A stretch of 21,540 nucleotides of DNA from a virus. Below are positions 2,925 through 21,034 of this stretch, one piece after another. The notes below the pieces were generated by a model, which was not told where the DNA came from, searched no databases, and saw only the letters and a program-made list of their open reading frames with translations. The first letter of the stretch is position 1. Every line of letters starts with the position of its first letter. Both the position numbers and the translations under genes were made by a program. The DNA lies in the IMG/VR virus record IMGVR_UViG_3300036853_000083, positions 1-21,540 of that record; one strand, given 5' to 3'.

Positions 2925-3375
2925 GAGCCGGTTCGAACAGACGTTGGCCTTCGACCTGCGCCGGAGCTGGCAGGCGCGGGCGCTTCTGGCCGCCGAAGGC
3001 AAGGCCGGCATGGTGCTGCTGTCGATGATTGACCACAGCTACGGCACGGACACGCTGCGCGTGCTCCTGCCGCTGGTCTTCCCGGGCTACATCGAGCCAT
3101 CGCTGCCGTGCCTGGCGAGCTGTGGAAAAGTGGATAAGTCCGGCGCCGTGGTCGCCGACGTGATCATGAAGAACCACGACCTCGTCAAGGACAAGGTCAT
3201 CTACGGCAGCGAATTGGAGCTGCGGGACGAATTCCGGAAGCTCGCCGACCGGCTGAAGCTTCCCGACGCCGACCGGATCGAGTTGTTCAAGTGCGTACAG
3301 CGCTGGGTGGTCGCCGACCGCCGGCTCGATCCGTCGTTTGACCCGCAGGACCCCGATGCCAAGCGCCTCCACTAG
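2908..3375 (+). CDS. Hypothetical protein upstream of the portal
   Basis: A 155-residue protein if the GTG at 2908 is used; GTG 2917 is an equally possible start three codons later. Both lie inside the end of the preceding gene, so coupled translation is likely. I do not recognise a family. The sequence is a mixed alpha/beta soluble type, with conserved-looking stretches such as WQARALLAAEGKAGMVLLSMIDH (broken here for description: Trp-Gln-Ala at about 18, SMIDH near 39) and KCVQRWVVADRRLDPSFDP at the C-terminus. Three Cys residues are scattered (SLPCLASC, FKCV). It ends at TAG 3373-3375, 20 bases inside the portal gene. Its position between terminase and portal suggests a head-assembly accessory, with no direct evidence. 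Confidence 0.65.
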   Translation: MALVLESRFEQTLAFDLRRSWQARALLAAEGKAGMVLLSMIDHSYGTDTLRVLLPLVFPGYIEPSLPCLASCGKVDKSGAVVADVIMKNHDLVKDKVIYGSELELRDEFRKLADRLKLPDADRIELFKCVQRWVVADRRLDPSFDPQDPDAKRLH

Positions 3376-9040: not shown

Positions 9041-10879
9041 ATGGCGGCATTTACCAGCAAAGTAGACATCGGCAACCGCGCGCTACAGCACTGCGGCGCC
9101 GATCGCATGGGATCGGACGGCTTCAGCGAGGATTCCAAGCGAGCGTCCGAGGTGTCCTTCGTTTACGACAAGGTCCGCGTCGCGGAGCTCCAGGAGAACG
9201 TCTGGACCTTCGCCACCCGCCGCGCCACGCTGCGGGCGGTCGACACCGCGACGATGATGCTGAACCCGGCTATGTGGTCGCAGACAACGACCTACTATCG
9301 CGGGTCGATCGCCTCCGACCAGGTCGGCAATCTCTGGATATCGAGAGTACCCGGCAACATCGGGAACGACCCGCTTCTGACCAATGTCTGGGAGCCGTAT
9401 TTCGGTCCGTTGACGGTGTCGAGCTACGATAGCACGGCGACCTATGGCGCCGGCGAGCTTGTCTACACCTATGCCGGTGACGGCACCTATCGCGTTTACC
9501 TCTCGATGCAGGACGCCAATTCGGACGTTCCCGCGACCGCGACCGCTTGGAATGCGACGGTCACCTACGCGCAGGACCAGGTCGTGACCTTCACTGGGGG
9601 GAACGACAGCTTTGCGAAGGTGCTGCTGCATTTCGATGGCGCCGACGCATCGACCACGATCACCGACAACAACGCGGGAGGTTCCGCGCATGCCTGGACG
9701 GCGAATGGCAATGCGCAAATCGACACCGCGCAGAGCAAATTTGGTGGCGCCTCTGGACTGTTCGACGGCGCCGGAAGCTATGTCACGGCGCTGGATAGCC
9801 CCGATTTTACACTTGGCGCAGGGGACTGGACTGTTGATCTGTGGTTCCGAGTCGGGGGTGGCGATGGGACAACGATGAGGCTGGCCGGACAATGCGACGC
9901 TTCGCTAACGGCGACGACCCGCAGCTTCATGATTTCCCGGACAGCCGCAAATATCATTCAGGCCCAGGCATTCGTGGGCGCCGTCGGGACCGTCTGTAGC
10001 GGTACGACGCAGTTCACGACCATCATCAATCCAGGATGGCATCACGTCGCGCTGGTGAGAACGGGAAACACTCTCAAGCTATTCGTCGATGGTGTCCAGG
10101 AAGGCGGGGACCAGACAATTACCGGTTCGGTAAACGATAGTGCAAATGCGCTGTCCGTTGGCAGGCTGGGTGAGGAAGTCGCCAACTATTGGAACGGTTG
10201 GATCGATGAATTCCGCCTGAGCGTCAGCATCGCGCGCTGGACGGCAAATTTTGCGCCGCCGCAAGTGGCGTATGCCTCCGGTGTCGTCCCGTATATGAGC
10301 CTCTTCGACCTAAACCTGAACCAGCAGCCAGACACGCATCCGCTGGCGTGGACCACGACCTTCACCGGTGGCACCGGCTCGGTGAAGTGGCTCGAGATCG
10401 GCGGCGTCGACTTCCCGACCGGTGTAGGCCTGACCGTACCGAACATCGTCTACCCGCTCGGTTCGGGCCCGTCCTCTCAGTCGAACAGCCAGAACATCTT
10501 CAAGCTGCCGGCGGGCTATCTGCGCATCGCGCCGCAGAACCCAAAGGTTGCTGTGCCAATGCTCGGCGCGCCGACCGGCAACACCTACAACGATTGGCAG
10601 ATCGAGAACGGCTACATCGTTTCGGCTGACGATGGGCCGATCCGGCTGCGTTTCGTGGCCGATGTGACCGACGTCACCAAGATGGACGCGCTGTTCTGCG
10701 AGGGTCTCGCGGCACGGATCGGCCTTGAGATAGCGCAGCCCATCACGCAATCCGACGCGAGATTGCAGACGATTGCGTCGCTCTACAAGCGCTTCATGGA
10801 TCGTGCAAAGGTCGCCAACTCGATCGAGGCTGGCTATGACGATCCGCCGGACGATGTCTACGTTTCCGTGAGGCTCTGA
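9041..10879 (+). CDS. Tail adaptor (tail tubular A type) carrying a LamG-like domain
   Basis: A 612-residue protein, about three times the usual 190-220 residues. The N-terminus (KVDIGNRALQHCGAD at 7-21, FVYDKVRVAELQENVWTFATRRATL at 40-64) and C-terminus (GYLRIAPQNPK; NGYIVSADDGPIRLRFVADV; AARIGLEIAQPITQSDARLQ; KVANSIEAGYDDPP) match the adaptor ring that joins portal and nozzle. Between them are carbohydrate-binding-like repeats of the CBM5/12 (ChtBD3) pattern at about 75-120 and 124-168, and a third begun at W170-G187 and resumed at G414-W437. The third is interrupted by residues 188-413, a LamG/concanavalin-like domain: FAKVLLHFDGAD, GDWTVDLWFRV, and GWHHVALVRTGNTLKLFVDG starting at 332. 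ATG 9041 was chosen because the upstream TTG 9005 lies in the repeated element. It overlaps the nozzle by one base (TGATG). Confidence 0.82.
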   Translation: MAAFTSKVDIGNRALQHCGADRMGSDGFSEDSKRASEVSFVYDKVRVAELQENVWTFATRRATLRAVDTATMMLNPAMWSQTTTYYRGSIASDQVGNLWISRVPGNIGNDPLLTNVWEPYFGPLTVSSYDSTATYGAGELVYTYAGDGTYRVYLSMQDANSDVPATATAWNATVTYAQDQVVTFTGGNDSFAKVLLHFDGADASTTITDNNAGGSAHAWTANGNAQIDTAQSKFGGASGLFDGAGSYVTALDSPDFTLGAGDWTVDLWFRVGGGDGTTMRLAGQCDASLTATTRSFMISRTAANIIQAQAFVGAVGTVCSGTTQFTTIINPGWHHVALVRTGNTLKLFVDGVQEGGDQTITGSVNDSANALSVGRLGEEVANYWNGWIDEFRLSVSIARWTANFAPPQVAYASGVVPYMSLFDLNLNQQPDTHPLAWTTTFTGGTGSVKWLEIGGVDFPTGVGLTVPNIVYPLGSGPSSQSNSQNIFKLPAGYLRIAPQNPKVAVPMLGAPTGNTYNDWQIENGYIVSADDGPIRLRFVADVTDVTKMDALFCEGLAARIGLEIAQPITQSDARLQTIASLYKRFMDRAKVANSIEAGYDDPPDDVYVSVRL

Positions 10880-13800
10880 TGCCTGCCGCAACGCAGCTTT
10901 TCACGTCCTTTCTCGGCGGTGAGATCAGCCAGTACTCGCAAGGGCGCTACGACCGGCCAGACTATCGCACCTCGCTGCGGGTCTGCCTGAATGCGTTCCC
11001 TCTCGAAGGCGGCGCATGGACGCGCAGGCCCGGGACGAAGTACGCAGGCCATACCCGCGGCGGCGCAGCGGGCCGTGTCATGAAGTTCGACTTCGAGCAG
11101 GACGCGCCGATCACCAAGGAATACACCGACGGCTATTTGCGCTTTCGGAGCGGCGCAACGCTGATCGGAACGAACGACGACGCAACGATCGTTGCGATCT
11201 CGTCCGCAAATCCCGCCGTTGTGCAGGTCTCCTCCGCGGTGACGTGGGCGACTGGCAATACCGTCGTGTTTCCGGGCGCCTCGACGCCGCTGCTTGAAAA
11301 CCGCCAGTTCACGATCACGGTCTCGGACACGACGCACTTCTCCCTGCAGGATGCGTTGACCGGCGCAAACATAGATGGTTCCACACTCGGCGCGCTCCCC
11401 GGAGGAACCACGGTGCGCCGCGTGCACGAGCTCACGACGGTGTATGTCGGGCAGTCGTGGCAAGATTTGCGAGCGGTTCAGGCCGAGACGACGGACGTCC
11501 TGCTCACGCCAAGACTGGCGCCCCAGATCCTATCGGTGTCGACGCTTCCGTCCGATGATGTCAGCCCGCAGTTTTCGATTGCGCCTGCGGTCCTCCAGGA
11601 TGGTCCATACCTCGATCCGCCGACAAACGGCGCGCAGGTGACGCCGAGCGCACTGACTGGCAACGTGACGCTGACGCTTGGCTTTCCTGCCTACGTATCG
11701 ACGCAGGCCTACGCCAAGGATTCCTTTGTCTCGGCGTCCGGCGTCAACTACAAATCTCTGATCGACCAGAATATTGGCAACACGCCGGTCAGCAGCCCGA
11801 GTGCATGGGCGCCAACAAGCGCTGGCGCTGCGATCAATGATGGGCGCGGCTTTCTCGGAACGGATGTCGGCCGCCTTATTCGGTTCTATTCAGAGCCGGT
11901 GGCGTGGACCGCCGCCTCGTCTTACTCGTCCGGCCAGATCGTTTCCTATAATCCAACCGGGAAACCGGGGGCGGCAACCTATTGGCAGGCAGCAGCCAGC
12001 ACGACAAATAACCCCCCCGGATCTGACCTTACTCATTGGACGCTGATCACCACCAACGCCGCAGCGCTGTGGACGTGGGGCAAGATCACCGGGCTTTCGA
12101 ACGTGATCGACCGCGCGCTGGCAGGCTCGACATCGATCGGAAACCTGACGAGCGGCGGCGGTCTAGCTGCTGCGTTTGACGGCAATTTCTCCAAGTCAGT
12201 CGGCCTCTGTGCCAGGTTCGTCGACGGCGCGTCTGGCGTCTTCATCCCTCCATCGACGACGCTATTGCTGACGAGGTATGTCGGCAAGAACTACTCCGGA
12301 GCCAGCGCGCAAAAGATATCTCAGGTCACCGTCTATCCGTCGTCCGATGCCGGTATGGGCTACGGGAGTGTGGCATATGGCGGCGGTCTTTCCCCACAAA
12401 CTGTGAGTTTTACGATCAATCTTCGGGCCAAGAACTCGCTTCCCGTCGGCTCAGCCGACGGGACGCTGCTCGGCTCCGCGACATTTGCCGGTATCTCTCC
12501 TACGACGACGGTCGTCTCCAATGATCAGGTGACGGCGTGGAATTATGTGTGGGTCGAGATGTTCGTCTCGACCACGACGTCATCTTCGGCATATGCCACG
12601 CAATACGAATTCTCTCTGAACCTTTCGCAGGTGACGTTCTATAGCCCGACAACCTCGTCGAGCGCGGGCTGCACCGCTGAAATTCTCGGACCCGCGCTGC
12701 TCTATTCGCAACCGATTACCACATGGCGGCTCGGCGCATACAGCGACACCACCGGATGGCCGACGTGCGGCTGTTACGACGGCGGGCGCCTCGTCCTCGG
12801 TGGCGCGATTCCGAACCGCTGGGACGCTTGCGTTTCCAACGGCATCAGCGGCAACACGATCAATTTCGCGCCGACCGACGTGTATGGTGTTGTGGCCGCA
12901 TCGAATGCGATCTCATACACGTTCAACTCGGATAGCGTGAACCCGATTTTCTGGATGAGCCCCGAGTTGCAGGGCATCGTCATGGGCACACAGGCCGGTG
13001 AATGGCTGGTCCAGGCGCCGACCTCAGGCGCGCTGTCGCCGACGAACGTATCCGCGCGCCGCGTCACCAAGATCGGATGCGCCAATATCGAGCCGCGCCG
13101 CACCGAGCACACGTTGATCTTCATCAAGCGCTATGCGCGGAAGCTAATGGAGTATTTCGCCGACGTCTATTCCGGCAAGTATTCGGCGCCAAACCTGGCC
13201 GACAAGGCTCAGCACATCGTCAGCGCTGGGGCTGCCGAACTCGCCTATACCGAGGCTGTGACGCCGGTTCTGTGGGGGCGGGACGAAAGCGGCAGCATGT
13301 TTGGGGTCACCTACAAGCGAGACAGCCTTGCCTCGGGGCAGGGGCCGACTTTCTACGCTTGGCACCGCCACGAACTCGGATCGGACCGCGTCGTCGAAAG
13401 CATGTGCTCCGGCCCGTCGGTTAACGGCGATCTCGACACCCTGACGATGGTGACGAATGACCTGACCACGAATGTCAGGCACGTCGAATTGCTGACAGAC
13501 ATGCCCGACGAAACAGCGACCCTAGCGTCGTCGTGGTTCCTCGATGATGCCGTGAACCCAACGTCTATCACGGTCGGCGCAAGCAGCGTCATACTCAATG
13601 GCCTGTGGCACCTCAACGGAAAGACAGTGCAGGTCTTCGCCGGCGGGCTCGACCTTGGCGATCTCGGCGATGCCGTGGCGTGGTCGTCCACGAAGACTTA
13701 CGGCTCCGGCGAATACGTCAAGGGCAGCGACAGGTTGTTCTATGTCTCGCTCGTTGGCAGCAACCTTAACCACGATCCGACGACGGATGACGGCACGCAT

Positions 13801-14289
13801 TGGGGCTCAGACTACATCGTCAGTAATGGCTCGGTGACCGTGCCGCTGGCCGACGGCATCAGCGCGGGGCCTGGCCGCGGGCTGTTCACCTCCACATTCG
13901 CGAGCGCGCTGGCGCTGACGGACATCGTCATCGGCTTCACCTACAACAGCGACGGACAGCTCGTGCGTCTGGTCGGGCAAGCGGATACTGGCGCTCGCAA
14001 CGGGCCCGCCATGGGCGCTCCCAGCCGCACCCACCGTGCCGCGATGAAGCTCGTCAATGCGAAGGGCCTGTCGATCGGCGGCACATTCGCCGATCTTTAC
14101 CCCTGCCAGTTCAAGATGTCGGGCACAAGCGCGACCGACCTTGCGGCGCTGTCGACATTCAGCGGCATCTTCTACGACCAGGTAAAGTCGGATTTCAGCT
14201 ACGAGGACTCGCTTTGCTGGCGCGTGTCGCGGCCGTTCCCGTGCACGATCACGGCCGCCGCGCAGAACCTCCGGACGGAGGACATGTAG
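10879..14289 (+). CDS. Tail nozzle (tail tubular B type), enlarged
   Basis: A 1136-residue protein that should form the short tail tube below the adaptor and meet the cell surface. The first 100 residues (LFTSFLGGEISQYSQGRYDRPDY; CLNAFPLEGGAWTRRPGTKYAG; VMKFDFEQ; YLRFRSG) are the standard nozzle opening. The region about 640-830 (NRWDACVSNG, NPIFWMSPELQGIVMGTQAGEWLVQA, ARRVTKIGCANIEPRRTEHTLIFIKR..) matches the nozzle beta-propeller found across T7-like and related podoviruses. Carbohydrate-binding-like repeats sit at about 271-318 (GVNYKSLIDQNIGNTP..W), 342-394 and 934-984 (FYVSLVGSNLNHDPTTDDGTHW). They echo those of the adaptor and account for part of the extra length; a Ser/Thr-rich beta insert at about 430-600 accounts for more. 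It is followed by TAG then ATG of the next gene in the same frame. Confidence 0.88.
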   Translation: MPAATQLFTSFLGGEISQYSQGRYDRPDYRTSLRVCLNAFPLEGGAWTRRPGTKYAGHTRGGAAGRVMKFDFEQDAPITKEYTDGYLRFRSGATLIGTNDDATIVAISSANPAVVQVSSAVTWATGNTVVFPGASTPLLENRQFTITVSDTTHFSLQDALTGANIDGSTLGALPGGTTVRRVHELTTVYVGQSWQDLRAVQAETTDVLLTPRLAPQILSVSTLPSDDVSPQFSIAPAVLQDGPYLDPPTNGAQVTPSALTGNVTLTLGFPAYVSTQAYAKDSFVSASGVNYKSLIDQNIGNTPVSSPSAWAPTSAGAAINDGRGFLGTDVGRLIRFYSEPVAWTAASSYSSGQIVSYNPTGKPGAATYWQAAASTTNNPPGSDLTHWTLITTNAAALWTWGKITGLSNVIDRALAGSTSIGNLTSGGGLAAAFDGNFSKSVGLCARFVDGASGVFIPPSTTLLLTRYVGKNYSGASAQKISQVTVYPSSDAGMGYGSVAYGGGLSPQTVSFTINLRAKNSLPVGSADGTLLGSATFAGISPTTTVVSNDQVTAWNYVWVEMFVSTTTSSSAYATQYEFSLNLSQVTFYSPTTSSSAGCTAEILGPALLYSQPITTWRLGAYSDTTGWPTCGCYDGGRLVLGGAIPNRWDACVSNGISGNTINFAPTDVYGVVAASNAISYTFNSDSVNPIFWMSPELQGIVMGTQAGEWLVQAPTSGALSPTNVSARRVTKIGCANIEPRRTEHTLIFIKRYARKLMEYFADVYSGKYSAPNLADKAQHIVSAGAAELAYTEAVTPVLWGRDESGSMFGVTYKRDSLASGQGPTFYAWHRHELGSDRVVESMCSGPSVNGDLDTLTMVTNDLTTNVRHVELLTDMPDETATLASSWFLDDAVNPTSITVGASSVILNGLWHLNGKTVQVFAGGLDLGDLGDAVAWSSTKTYGSGEYVKGSDRLFYVSLVGSNLNHDPTTDDGTHWGSDYIVSNGSVTVPLADGISAGPGRGLFTSTFASALALTDIVIGFTYNSDGQLVRLVGQADTGARNGPAMGAPSRTHRAAMKLVNAKGLSIGGTFADLYPCQFKMSGTSATDLAALSTFSGIFYDQVKSDFSYEDSLCWRVSRPFPCTITAAAQNLRTEDM

Positions 14290-19873: not shown

Positions 19874-19912
19874 GTGCGTTGTTGCCGGGGATGGTTCCGC
19901 CATCTTCCCGGC
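19874..19912 (+). promoter_or_regulatory. Repeated element copy 5: GTGCGTTGTT plus stem-loop abutting a start codon
   Basis: The 10-mer is at 19874-19883 and shares 19 bases with copy 2. The stem starts at the next base: GCCGGG + GATGG (19884-19894), loop TTCCG, CCATC (19900-19904), a two-base bulge, and CCCGGC (19907-19912). That is eleven pairs in all, ending exactly where the ATG of the fibre-like gene begins. No Shine-Dalgarno sequence is visible, so the stem may control translation as well. Candidate promoter and leader. Confidence 0.55.
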
Positions 19913-21034
19913 ATGGCACAGATCAGAAACCTCCTCGTCACGCTCATGCTGATGGTCGGGATTTTCCCTGCCGTCGCCCAGCAGTTCAACACCATCCCCG
20001 ATCATTCGTTTATCGGACGGATAGGCACCGGCAGCGGATCAGGGCCGTCTCAGGCCGTGCCATGGACGGCTCTGCCGGCGCTGATGGGAGTGCCATTTGG
20101 CCCACAATCGTGCTCGACCAACAATTGGTTCCGGACGCTGAGTTCCGCCGGCGTGCTGGGGTGCGCGCAGCCTGCATTCTCAAACCTGAGCGGATCGCTG
20201 CCGAATTCTCAGATGGCTGCAATGGCGGCGAACACGACGAAGTGCAATGCCACAGCCGGGTCGGCTGTGCCGACGGATTGCACGGCGTCCACGATGCGGA
20301 CCAACATGGGCGTTGTCATCGGGACGAACGTGCAGGCGTGGGATACCGATCTGGACTGCATCGCAGCGTTGTCCTCCACGGGCGTCATATCGCGAACGGG
20401 CGCCGGAACGTGCTCGGCGGGCGCGTTGGCGCTGAGCGGCCTTGCGACCGGGACGCAGGACACGGTTATCGGCTATTGGGGCTCGACGACCGCAACCGCA
20501 ATAGCGATCAACAACTGCTCGGGCGCGCTCACCTATTCGACCTCGACGCACACGTTCGGCTGCAATGCGACGGCCGGTACCGGCACGGTGACGTCGGTGA
20601 CGTGCGGCACCGGCCTATCGGGCGGCACGTTCACGACCACGGGAACTTGCGCCACGGCGCTGACGAGCATCACTAACTCGCTCGGTGCTGACGTCGCCAT
20701 GAACAATACGGCCAATTATTTCGACGGCCCATCCGTTGCGCAAGGCACGAGCGGGACGTGGTTGGCATCGGGGACCGTGACCGTCAGCGACTCCGGCGCG
20801 TCGGCAGCGTTCTATTGCAAGCTCTGGGATGGAACGACCGTCATCTCAAGCGCATCGGCTTATAGTGGGTCGGGCACGCAGCGCATGGCCATTGCTCTGT
20901 CGGGCGTCATCGCCAGCCCCGCCGCGAATATCAAGATTAGTTGTCGCGACGTCACGACCACAAACGGCTCAATCAATTTCAACACGACAGGCAACTCGAA
21001 AGACAGCACGCTGACCGCTGTTCGAATTCAGTAG
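19913..21034 (+). CDS. Tail-fibre-like protein with Sec signal peptide
   Basis: A 373-residue protein. Residues 1-22 form a clear Sec signal peptide: Arg near the start, a hydrophobic core LLVTLMLMVGIF, and PAVA before QQ as a signal peptidase I site. The mature start (FNTIPDHSFIGRIGTGSGSGPSQAVPW) and the repeat GTVTSVTCGTGLSGGTFTTTGTC are typical of rhizobial phage and prophage tail-fibre proteins. The rest is Ser/Thr/Gly/Ala-rich beta structure. About 12 Cys are spread along the mature chain (e.g. SCS, GCA, KCN, DCT, DCI, TCS, NCS, GCN, TCG, TCA, YCK, SCR), far more than in the other structural proteins here, suggesting disulfides formed after export. ATG 19913 is used because upstream codons lie in the repeated element. 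It may be a virion fibre or an exported surface protein; the first is favoured by context. Confidence 0.7.
   Translation: MAQIRNLLVTLMLMVGIFPAVAQQFNTIPDHSFIGRIGTGSGSGPSQAVPWTALPALMGVPFGPQSCSTNNWFRTLSSAGVLGCAQPAFSNLSGSLPNSQMAAMAANTTKCNATAGSAVPTDCTASTMRTNMGVVIGTNVQAWDTDLDCIAALSSTGVISRTGAGTCSAGALALSGLATGTQDTVIGYWGSTTATAIAINNCSGALTYSTSTHTFGCNATAGTGTVTSVTCGTGLSGGTFTTTGTCATALTSITNSLGADVAMNNTANYFDGPSVAQGTSGTWLASGTVTVSDSGASAAFYCKLWDGTTVISSASAYSGSGTQRMAIALSGVIASPAANIKISCRDVTTTNGSINFNTTGNSKDSTLTAVRIQ

Follow-up and report, generated by a model that had tools for sequence, protein, structure and literature searches.

The closest described systems are the tail adaptors T7 gp11 and KP32 TTPA (PDB 6r21, 5mu4) and the connector of phage Carin-1 (8ck1). 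These proteins have the same fold as a modelled relative of the adaptor studied here (Z 12-17) but are about 200 aa long, with neither CBM5/12-like repeats nor a LamG domain, whereas the adaptor encoded in the window has 612 aa. The window is the whole stretch of DNA that we analyzed, a virus record of 21,540 bases (IMGVR_UViG_3300036853_000083, positions 1-21,540). The T7 adaptor is a 12-mer, and the fibers are held between the fiber docks of the adaptor and the nozzle, which face the same groove (PMC6702177). KP32 TTPA contains an extra beta region (residues 57-99) that was termed lectin-like by its authors (PMC5440376) and lies roughly where the adaptor family of the window carries its repeats.

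Additional domains on neck proteins have been described as well. In lactococcal 936 phages, carbohydrate-binding modules are found on neck passage, major tail, and Dit proteins, and the module on the neck was able to bind to host cells, although only poorly (PMC6669499). The likeness to the window lies in optional sugar-binding modules grafted onto structural proteins, the neck included. However, the 936 phages are siphophages with BppA-like modules, and their neck module belongs to a separate collar protein, whereas the window comes from a podovirus whose adaptor ring itself holds the LamG, within one of its repeats. Roseophage R4C has a peripheral beta-sandwich on its head-tail adaptor, as in the window, but this is an N-terminal Ig-like domain, thought to touch the capsid and judged by the authors to be unlikely to act in adsorption (PMC10276861), whereas the LamG is internal and nested in a repeat. 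Promiscuous phage domains, one family of which occurs in many unrelated virion proteins, have been described with the neck passage structure proteins as an example of exchange; the passages on this exchange describe neither LamG nor an adaptor of the present kind (PMC10684548). Domain shuffling among phages is already known, and the window contains an adaptor LamG case of it, for which an insertion site, empty sites, and an exchange with the neighboring gene can be resolved.

A T7 gp11-type adaptor with an interrupted repeat

Based on Pfam and PHROG family matches, the genes of the window follow the series terminase, portal, capsid, adaptor, nozzle, and further virion genes. The portal (start at 3341, Head-tail_con type), capsid (6987, Phage_capsid_2), adaptor (9041), and nozzle (10879) have the order known for T7 gp11-type adaptors. 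Among deposited phage records, the portal has its top match in an uncultured podovirus (48%), followed by matches at 28-37% to Stenotrophomonas, Vibrio, Burkholderia BcepC6B, and Pelagibacter podoviruses. The phage is a short-tailed podovirus. Neither the adaptor alignment nor the portal found a relative when used to scan bacterial and archaeal genomes. The features of the adaptor gene, whose given reading frame and coordinates are correct, are as follows.

9041..10879, + strand: tail adaptor, T7 gp11 / tail tubular protein A type, 612 aa (phrog_394 and 8ck1_E matches)
9269..9409, + strand: first CBM5/12-like repeat, residues 77-123 (read from the sequence; kept in orthologues)
9416..9553, + strand: second CBM5/12-like repeat, residues 126-171 (read from the sequence; kept in orthologues)
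9545..9595, + strand: first half of the third CBM5/12-like repeat, residues 169-185, AWNATVTYAQDQVVTFT (aligned to the unbroken repeat in L007 and others)
9596..10282, + strand: inserted LamG/concanavalin-like domain, residues 186-414, 687 bp net (PF13385; absent in relatives; jelly-roll match; GC3)
10283..10363, + strand: second half of the third CBM5/12-like repeat, residues 415-441, VVPYMSLFDLNLNQQPDTHPLAWTTTF (aligns with VAYKSL...W of the orthologues)
10481..10873, + strand: C-terminal core of the adaptor, residues 481-611 (phrog_394)

The 612-aa protein matches the tail protein family phrog_394 (E 1.8e-32, best stretch residues 481-611), its N-terminus matches the Carin-1 connector 8ck1_E (phmmer), and the family profile matches both parts of the 8ck1 connector. 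It is an adaptor with three CBM5/12-like repeats and a LamG inside the third one. An adaptor free of repeats also exists (L004, 216 aa), and that of BcepC6B has about 207 aa. Scanned with the CBM5/12 profile PF02839, the adaptor repeats of eight orthologues score 9.1-20.7 bits (at most 17.0 in L007 and L010), below the Pfam cut-off of 26.2 bits, and the nozzle of the window reaches 23.2 bits. We name the repeats CBM5/12-like only: the third one has the predicted fold of CBM5/12 modules in the model of an orthologue, and the chitin-binding aromatics are putative.

The original prediction placed a LamG domain inside the third repeat, and the profile search and the relatives both bear this out. 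Pfam Laminin_G_3 (PF13385) matches residues 242-393 with 52.4 bits (E 8.7e-14; cut-off 27.6). In a global alignment with empty-site orthologues, the insertion amounts to 229 residues net (186-414) and is flanked by QVVTFT and VVPYMS, two residues off the limits proposed before (188-413). The insert also differs in base composition, with a GC3 of 0.675 where each flank has 0.82 (Fisher p 7e-5) and a GC skew that changes sign within it. The GC3 minimum of the nozzle is 0.68, so that a part of that gene is as low as the insert and the low GC3 by itself is no proof of foreign origin.

Empty-site relatives and structure models

Relatives with an uninterrupted third repeat were sought and found in number. 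The adaptors L007, L008/L009, L010/L013, and L016/L017 align to residues 1-185 and 416-612 of the window's protein with a single residue in between, the first three of these with a flank identity of 76-80%. The repeat is likewise uninterrupted in the sibling L033 and in the more distant L108, L113, and L117. In total, at least eight distinct related adaptors with a whole third repeat lack the LamG, six of them at 57-80% flank identity. In other relatives (L011, L012, L014, L101-L104, L106, L111, L112, L122, and L124), the third repeat is also whole but is followed at its end by a fourth repeat of the CBM5/12-like kind. The expectation that the two halves would join into one normal repeat is thereby realized in natural proteins. 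A maximum-likelihood tree built from the flanks puts the window into a clade of six (100/100) with L007, L008, L010, L016, and L017, and the LamG is absent from all five other members. Because the window nests within a fully supported clade of empty-site adaptors, the LamG is a derived gain.

The filled state is known from one contig only. A scan for the 5' junction retrieved no second filled adaptor from the collection, in which records very near the window may be missing. A single contig and a deviating base composition are what one would also see if the LamG of another phage had been joined into the adaptor gene in a chimeric metagenome assembly. We consider such an artifact highly improbable, since each junction keeps the reading frame, the two flank a single two-residue turn, and both coincide with the usual borders of the module; a chimera would need to exit and re-enter at the same codon. 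In addition, the sibling L033 independently carries a clean LamG insertion in the neighboring gene.

The empty-site orthologue L007 was modelled with a mean pLDDT of 73.6. Its model has the adaptor fold, with Z-scores of 17.0 to 8ck1_E and 12.4-12.9 to T7 gp11. Strands 179-182 and 185-189 of the model enclose a two-residue turn, which is exactly the entry point of the LamG in the window. The third repeat (model residues 166-210) shows the CBM5/12 fold: its superposition on CBM5/12 modules of chitinases gives 0.8-2.1 Å over 41-47 residues (Z about 7). The repeats follow strand 57-62 and precede the strands from residue 254 on, i.e., they are located in the beta region of the adaptor.

The model of the full-length adaptor of the window has a mean pLDDT of 55.7 and is poor outside the LamG core, especially from about residue 375 on; the alignment behind it was flawed, as MAFFT had scattered the last 70 or so residues of LamG fragments across the adaptor C-terminus. 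It was therefore used for the LamG core only. Residues 196-379 form the sandwich that had been anticipated, a jelly-roll with a pLDDT mostly between 60 and 94 and with Z-scores of 12-13 to lectin-type jelly-rolls over 160-173 residues. The top Foldseek matches of this core include laminin LG modules, and CBM66 is also listed. Sugar-binding structures among the matches are domain 4 of AbnA with an arabino-oligosaccharide (5hon) and CBM66 (4b1m). The binding domains of clostridial neurotoxins, which also appeared among the top structural matches, were set aside as indicating neither kinship nor function: they share the common jelly-roll fold at 7-16% identity. The insert is thus a predicted jelly-roll, and the likeness of fold by itself says nothing of function.

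LamG and repeat modules in other proteins and in the nozzle

Among the matched stretches of viral contigs, 154 LamG relatives were found. The nearest one (L018, 68%) resides in a virion protein of family phrog_3287; other hosts include nozzle-type proteins (phrog_376), a tail assembly protein, and a central tail fiber J-like protein. No adaptor is present among the other LamG hosts retrieved. Eighteen of the 83 LamG-bearing frames consist almost of LamG alone, 32 contain it internally, and the remainder have a terminal LamG. The borders of the module recur from protein to protein, with a start near GND and an end near PPxxxY, and the insert in the window shares them. Compared to L018 and L033, the LamG has a pN of 0.22-0.30 and a pS of 0.73-0.80, with silent sites saturated or nearly so. 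As amino-acid change lies far below this level of silent change, the module is old and constrained. In the LamG phylogeny, the domains of the window and of L033 fall within one clade of 22 rows (96/96) without being sisters. Almost free-standing LamG genes of approximately 235 aa were observed in other phages (L045:4995-5699, L053, L091, L082).

This distribution bears on the reading that the LamG and the CBM-like repeats brace the collar through contacts with capsid or portal, any sugar binding being incidental. The dodecameric Ig-like attachment domains on the R4C adaptor, which touch the capsid (PMC10276861), provide a precedent, and the repeats are old within the adaptor family, with the LamG being dispensable. 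A LamG that is present in one member and missing in relatives 80% identical around the site, however, fits an optional accessory better, and the module is found in many unrelated tail proteins. We therefore regard bracing as unlikely.

Three features of the gene that adjoins the adaptor bear on an exchange of modules between the two genes.

10879..14289, + strand: nozzle / tail tubular protein B type, 1136 aa, adjoining the adaptor (phrog_376, E 2.5e-75; 8ck1_A, E 1.9e-25)
13567..13599, + strand: nozzle loop, residues ~897-907, empty here and LamG site in the sibling L033 (nozzle alignment)
13681..13803, + strand: CBM5/12-like repeat private to the nozzle of the window, residues 935-975 (nozzle alignment; L011 match)

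The nozzle profile matches the Carin-1 tail nozzle (8ck1_A) with the E-value given above. In the sibling L033, the adaptor is intact and a LamG 54% identical to that of the window is located in the nozzle, as a clean insertion in a loop that is empty in eight other aligned nozzles. A LamG in a different loop, near the N-terminus (around residue 113), was observed in the nozzle-type proteins L034:2309-5635, L035:4665-7955, and L036:3228-4262. The repeat at residues 935-975 of the window's nozzle has no counterpart in any of the eight related nozzles of the alignment; it shares 57% identity with the fourth repeat of the adaptor L011 (E 1.3e-8).

In the adaptors L119:324-2009 and L125:5971-7650, the third repeat reads as two orphan halves with two complete extra repeats between them. 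From the sequences, these two extra CBM5/12-like repeats appear to be nested in the same turn as the LamG of the window, more clearly in L125. The kinship between guest and host repeats makes this nesting less certain, and in plain pairwise alignments of both adaptors the placement of the extra repeats is ambiguous. Two further adaptors have an unusual architecture of their own: L118:5014-7200 is one open frame of 729 aa with two adaptor copies head to tail (9-322, 330-729), either fused or duplicated, and in the 578-aa frame L073:474-2207 the adaptor N-terminus is matched twice (12-73, 380-439), possibly indicating a double adaptor.

We tentatively propose that the collar of adaptor and nozzle in this podovirus lineage is an exchange platform, in which the adaptor turn and the nozzle loop would repeatedly take up unrelated modules of glycan-binding type that move between both proteins, the LamG in the window and pairs of CBM5/12 repeats in L119 and L125 being examples. 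The neck, and not the fiber tip, would then be the fast-evolving surface of contact with host or matrix. This broader idea may well prove wrong, and we hold it with less confidence than the reading of the single insert given below.

A possible role at the fiber-attachment collar

The repeats would be inserted in the beta region that forms the fiber dock in T7 gp11 (PMC6702177), a placement taken from the L007 model. If so, the site of the LamG is probably the fiber-attachment collar at the boundary between adaptor and nozzle. This location makes the holding of a fiber a real rival to free glycan contact: repeats and LamG on the fiber-dock region would secure the tail fiber or some additional appendage, and a change of fiber would bring a change of module. 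T7 gp11 and gp12 both have beta fiber docks in the same groove (PMC6702177), the repeats follow strand 57-62 in the adaptor beta region of the L007 model, and LamG and CBM5/12-like modules occur in both adaptor and nozzle. Family matches, however, revealed no fiber with a partner domain in the partial record, and the LamG module is also present in proteins unconnected to fibers. We thus rate this rival as improbable, slightly below bracing. The record further encodes a 386-aa protein of low complexity and fiber-like look (19874-21034, FIGRIGTGSGSGPSQAVPW) with no family match, which may be the fiber or an appendage.

The reading that we prefer, and consider probable, is that the LamG is an exchangeable collar decoration of glycan-binding type, whose additional low-specificity sugar binding, itself deduced, would aid the virion. 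A LamG of a free-standing type that circulates among phage tail proteins has entered the third repeat in frame, at its hairpin turn. The repeat would still be able to close around it, and the adaptor should therefore keep its fold and show one extra jelly-roll per subunit. Because adaptors of the T7 gp11 type form 12-mers, approximately 12 LamG domains would ring the collar at the adaptor-nozzle junction, on the assumption, by analogy, of a dodecameric ring under the portal. There, they would bind sugars of the host envelope or of the polysaccharide around it with low specificity, and this hold on sugars would keep the short-tailed virion near the cell until the fibers find their receptor. The position of the LamG in the ring on the virion, the sugar binding, and the benefit are all steps that we infer.

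Several results speak for this reading as a whole, namely the empty sites, the insertion at a turn, the LamG fold with sugar-binding domains among its structural matches, the mobile module, the LamG in the L033 nozzle, the base composition of the insert, its low amino-acid change, and the precedent of the 936 phages. Against it stand the position of the adaptor, far from the tail tip, the opinion of the R4C authors on their peripheral domain, the single contig with the filled state, the poor full-length model outside the LamG core, and the fact that LamG folds serve in protein contacts too. Of the original prediction, the clean domain gain in a repeat loop of a conserved adaptor has held up through the empty sites and the tree, and the glycan role at the neck keeps the conditional standing it has above.

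The locus offers a natural control for domain insertion, with adaptors with and without LamG at about 80% identity and the insertion located to a two-residue turn. This turn of the adaptor is a site that tolerates an insert of 229 residues. For short-tailed phages, the finding suggests that the collar, and not the fiber tips alone, may bear domains of sugar-binding type.
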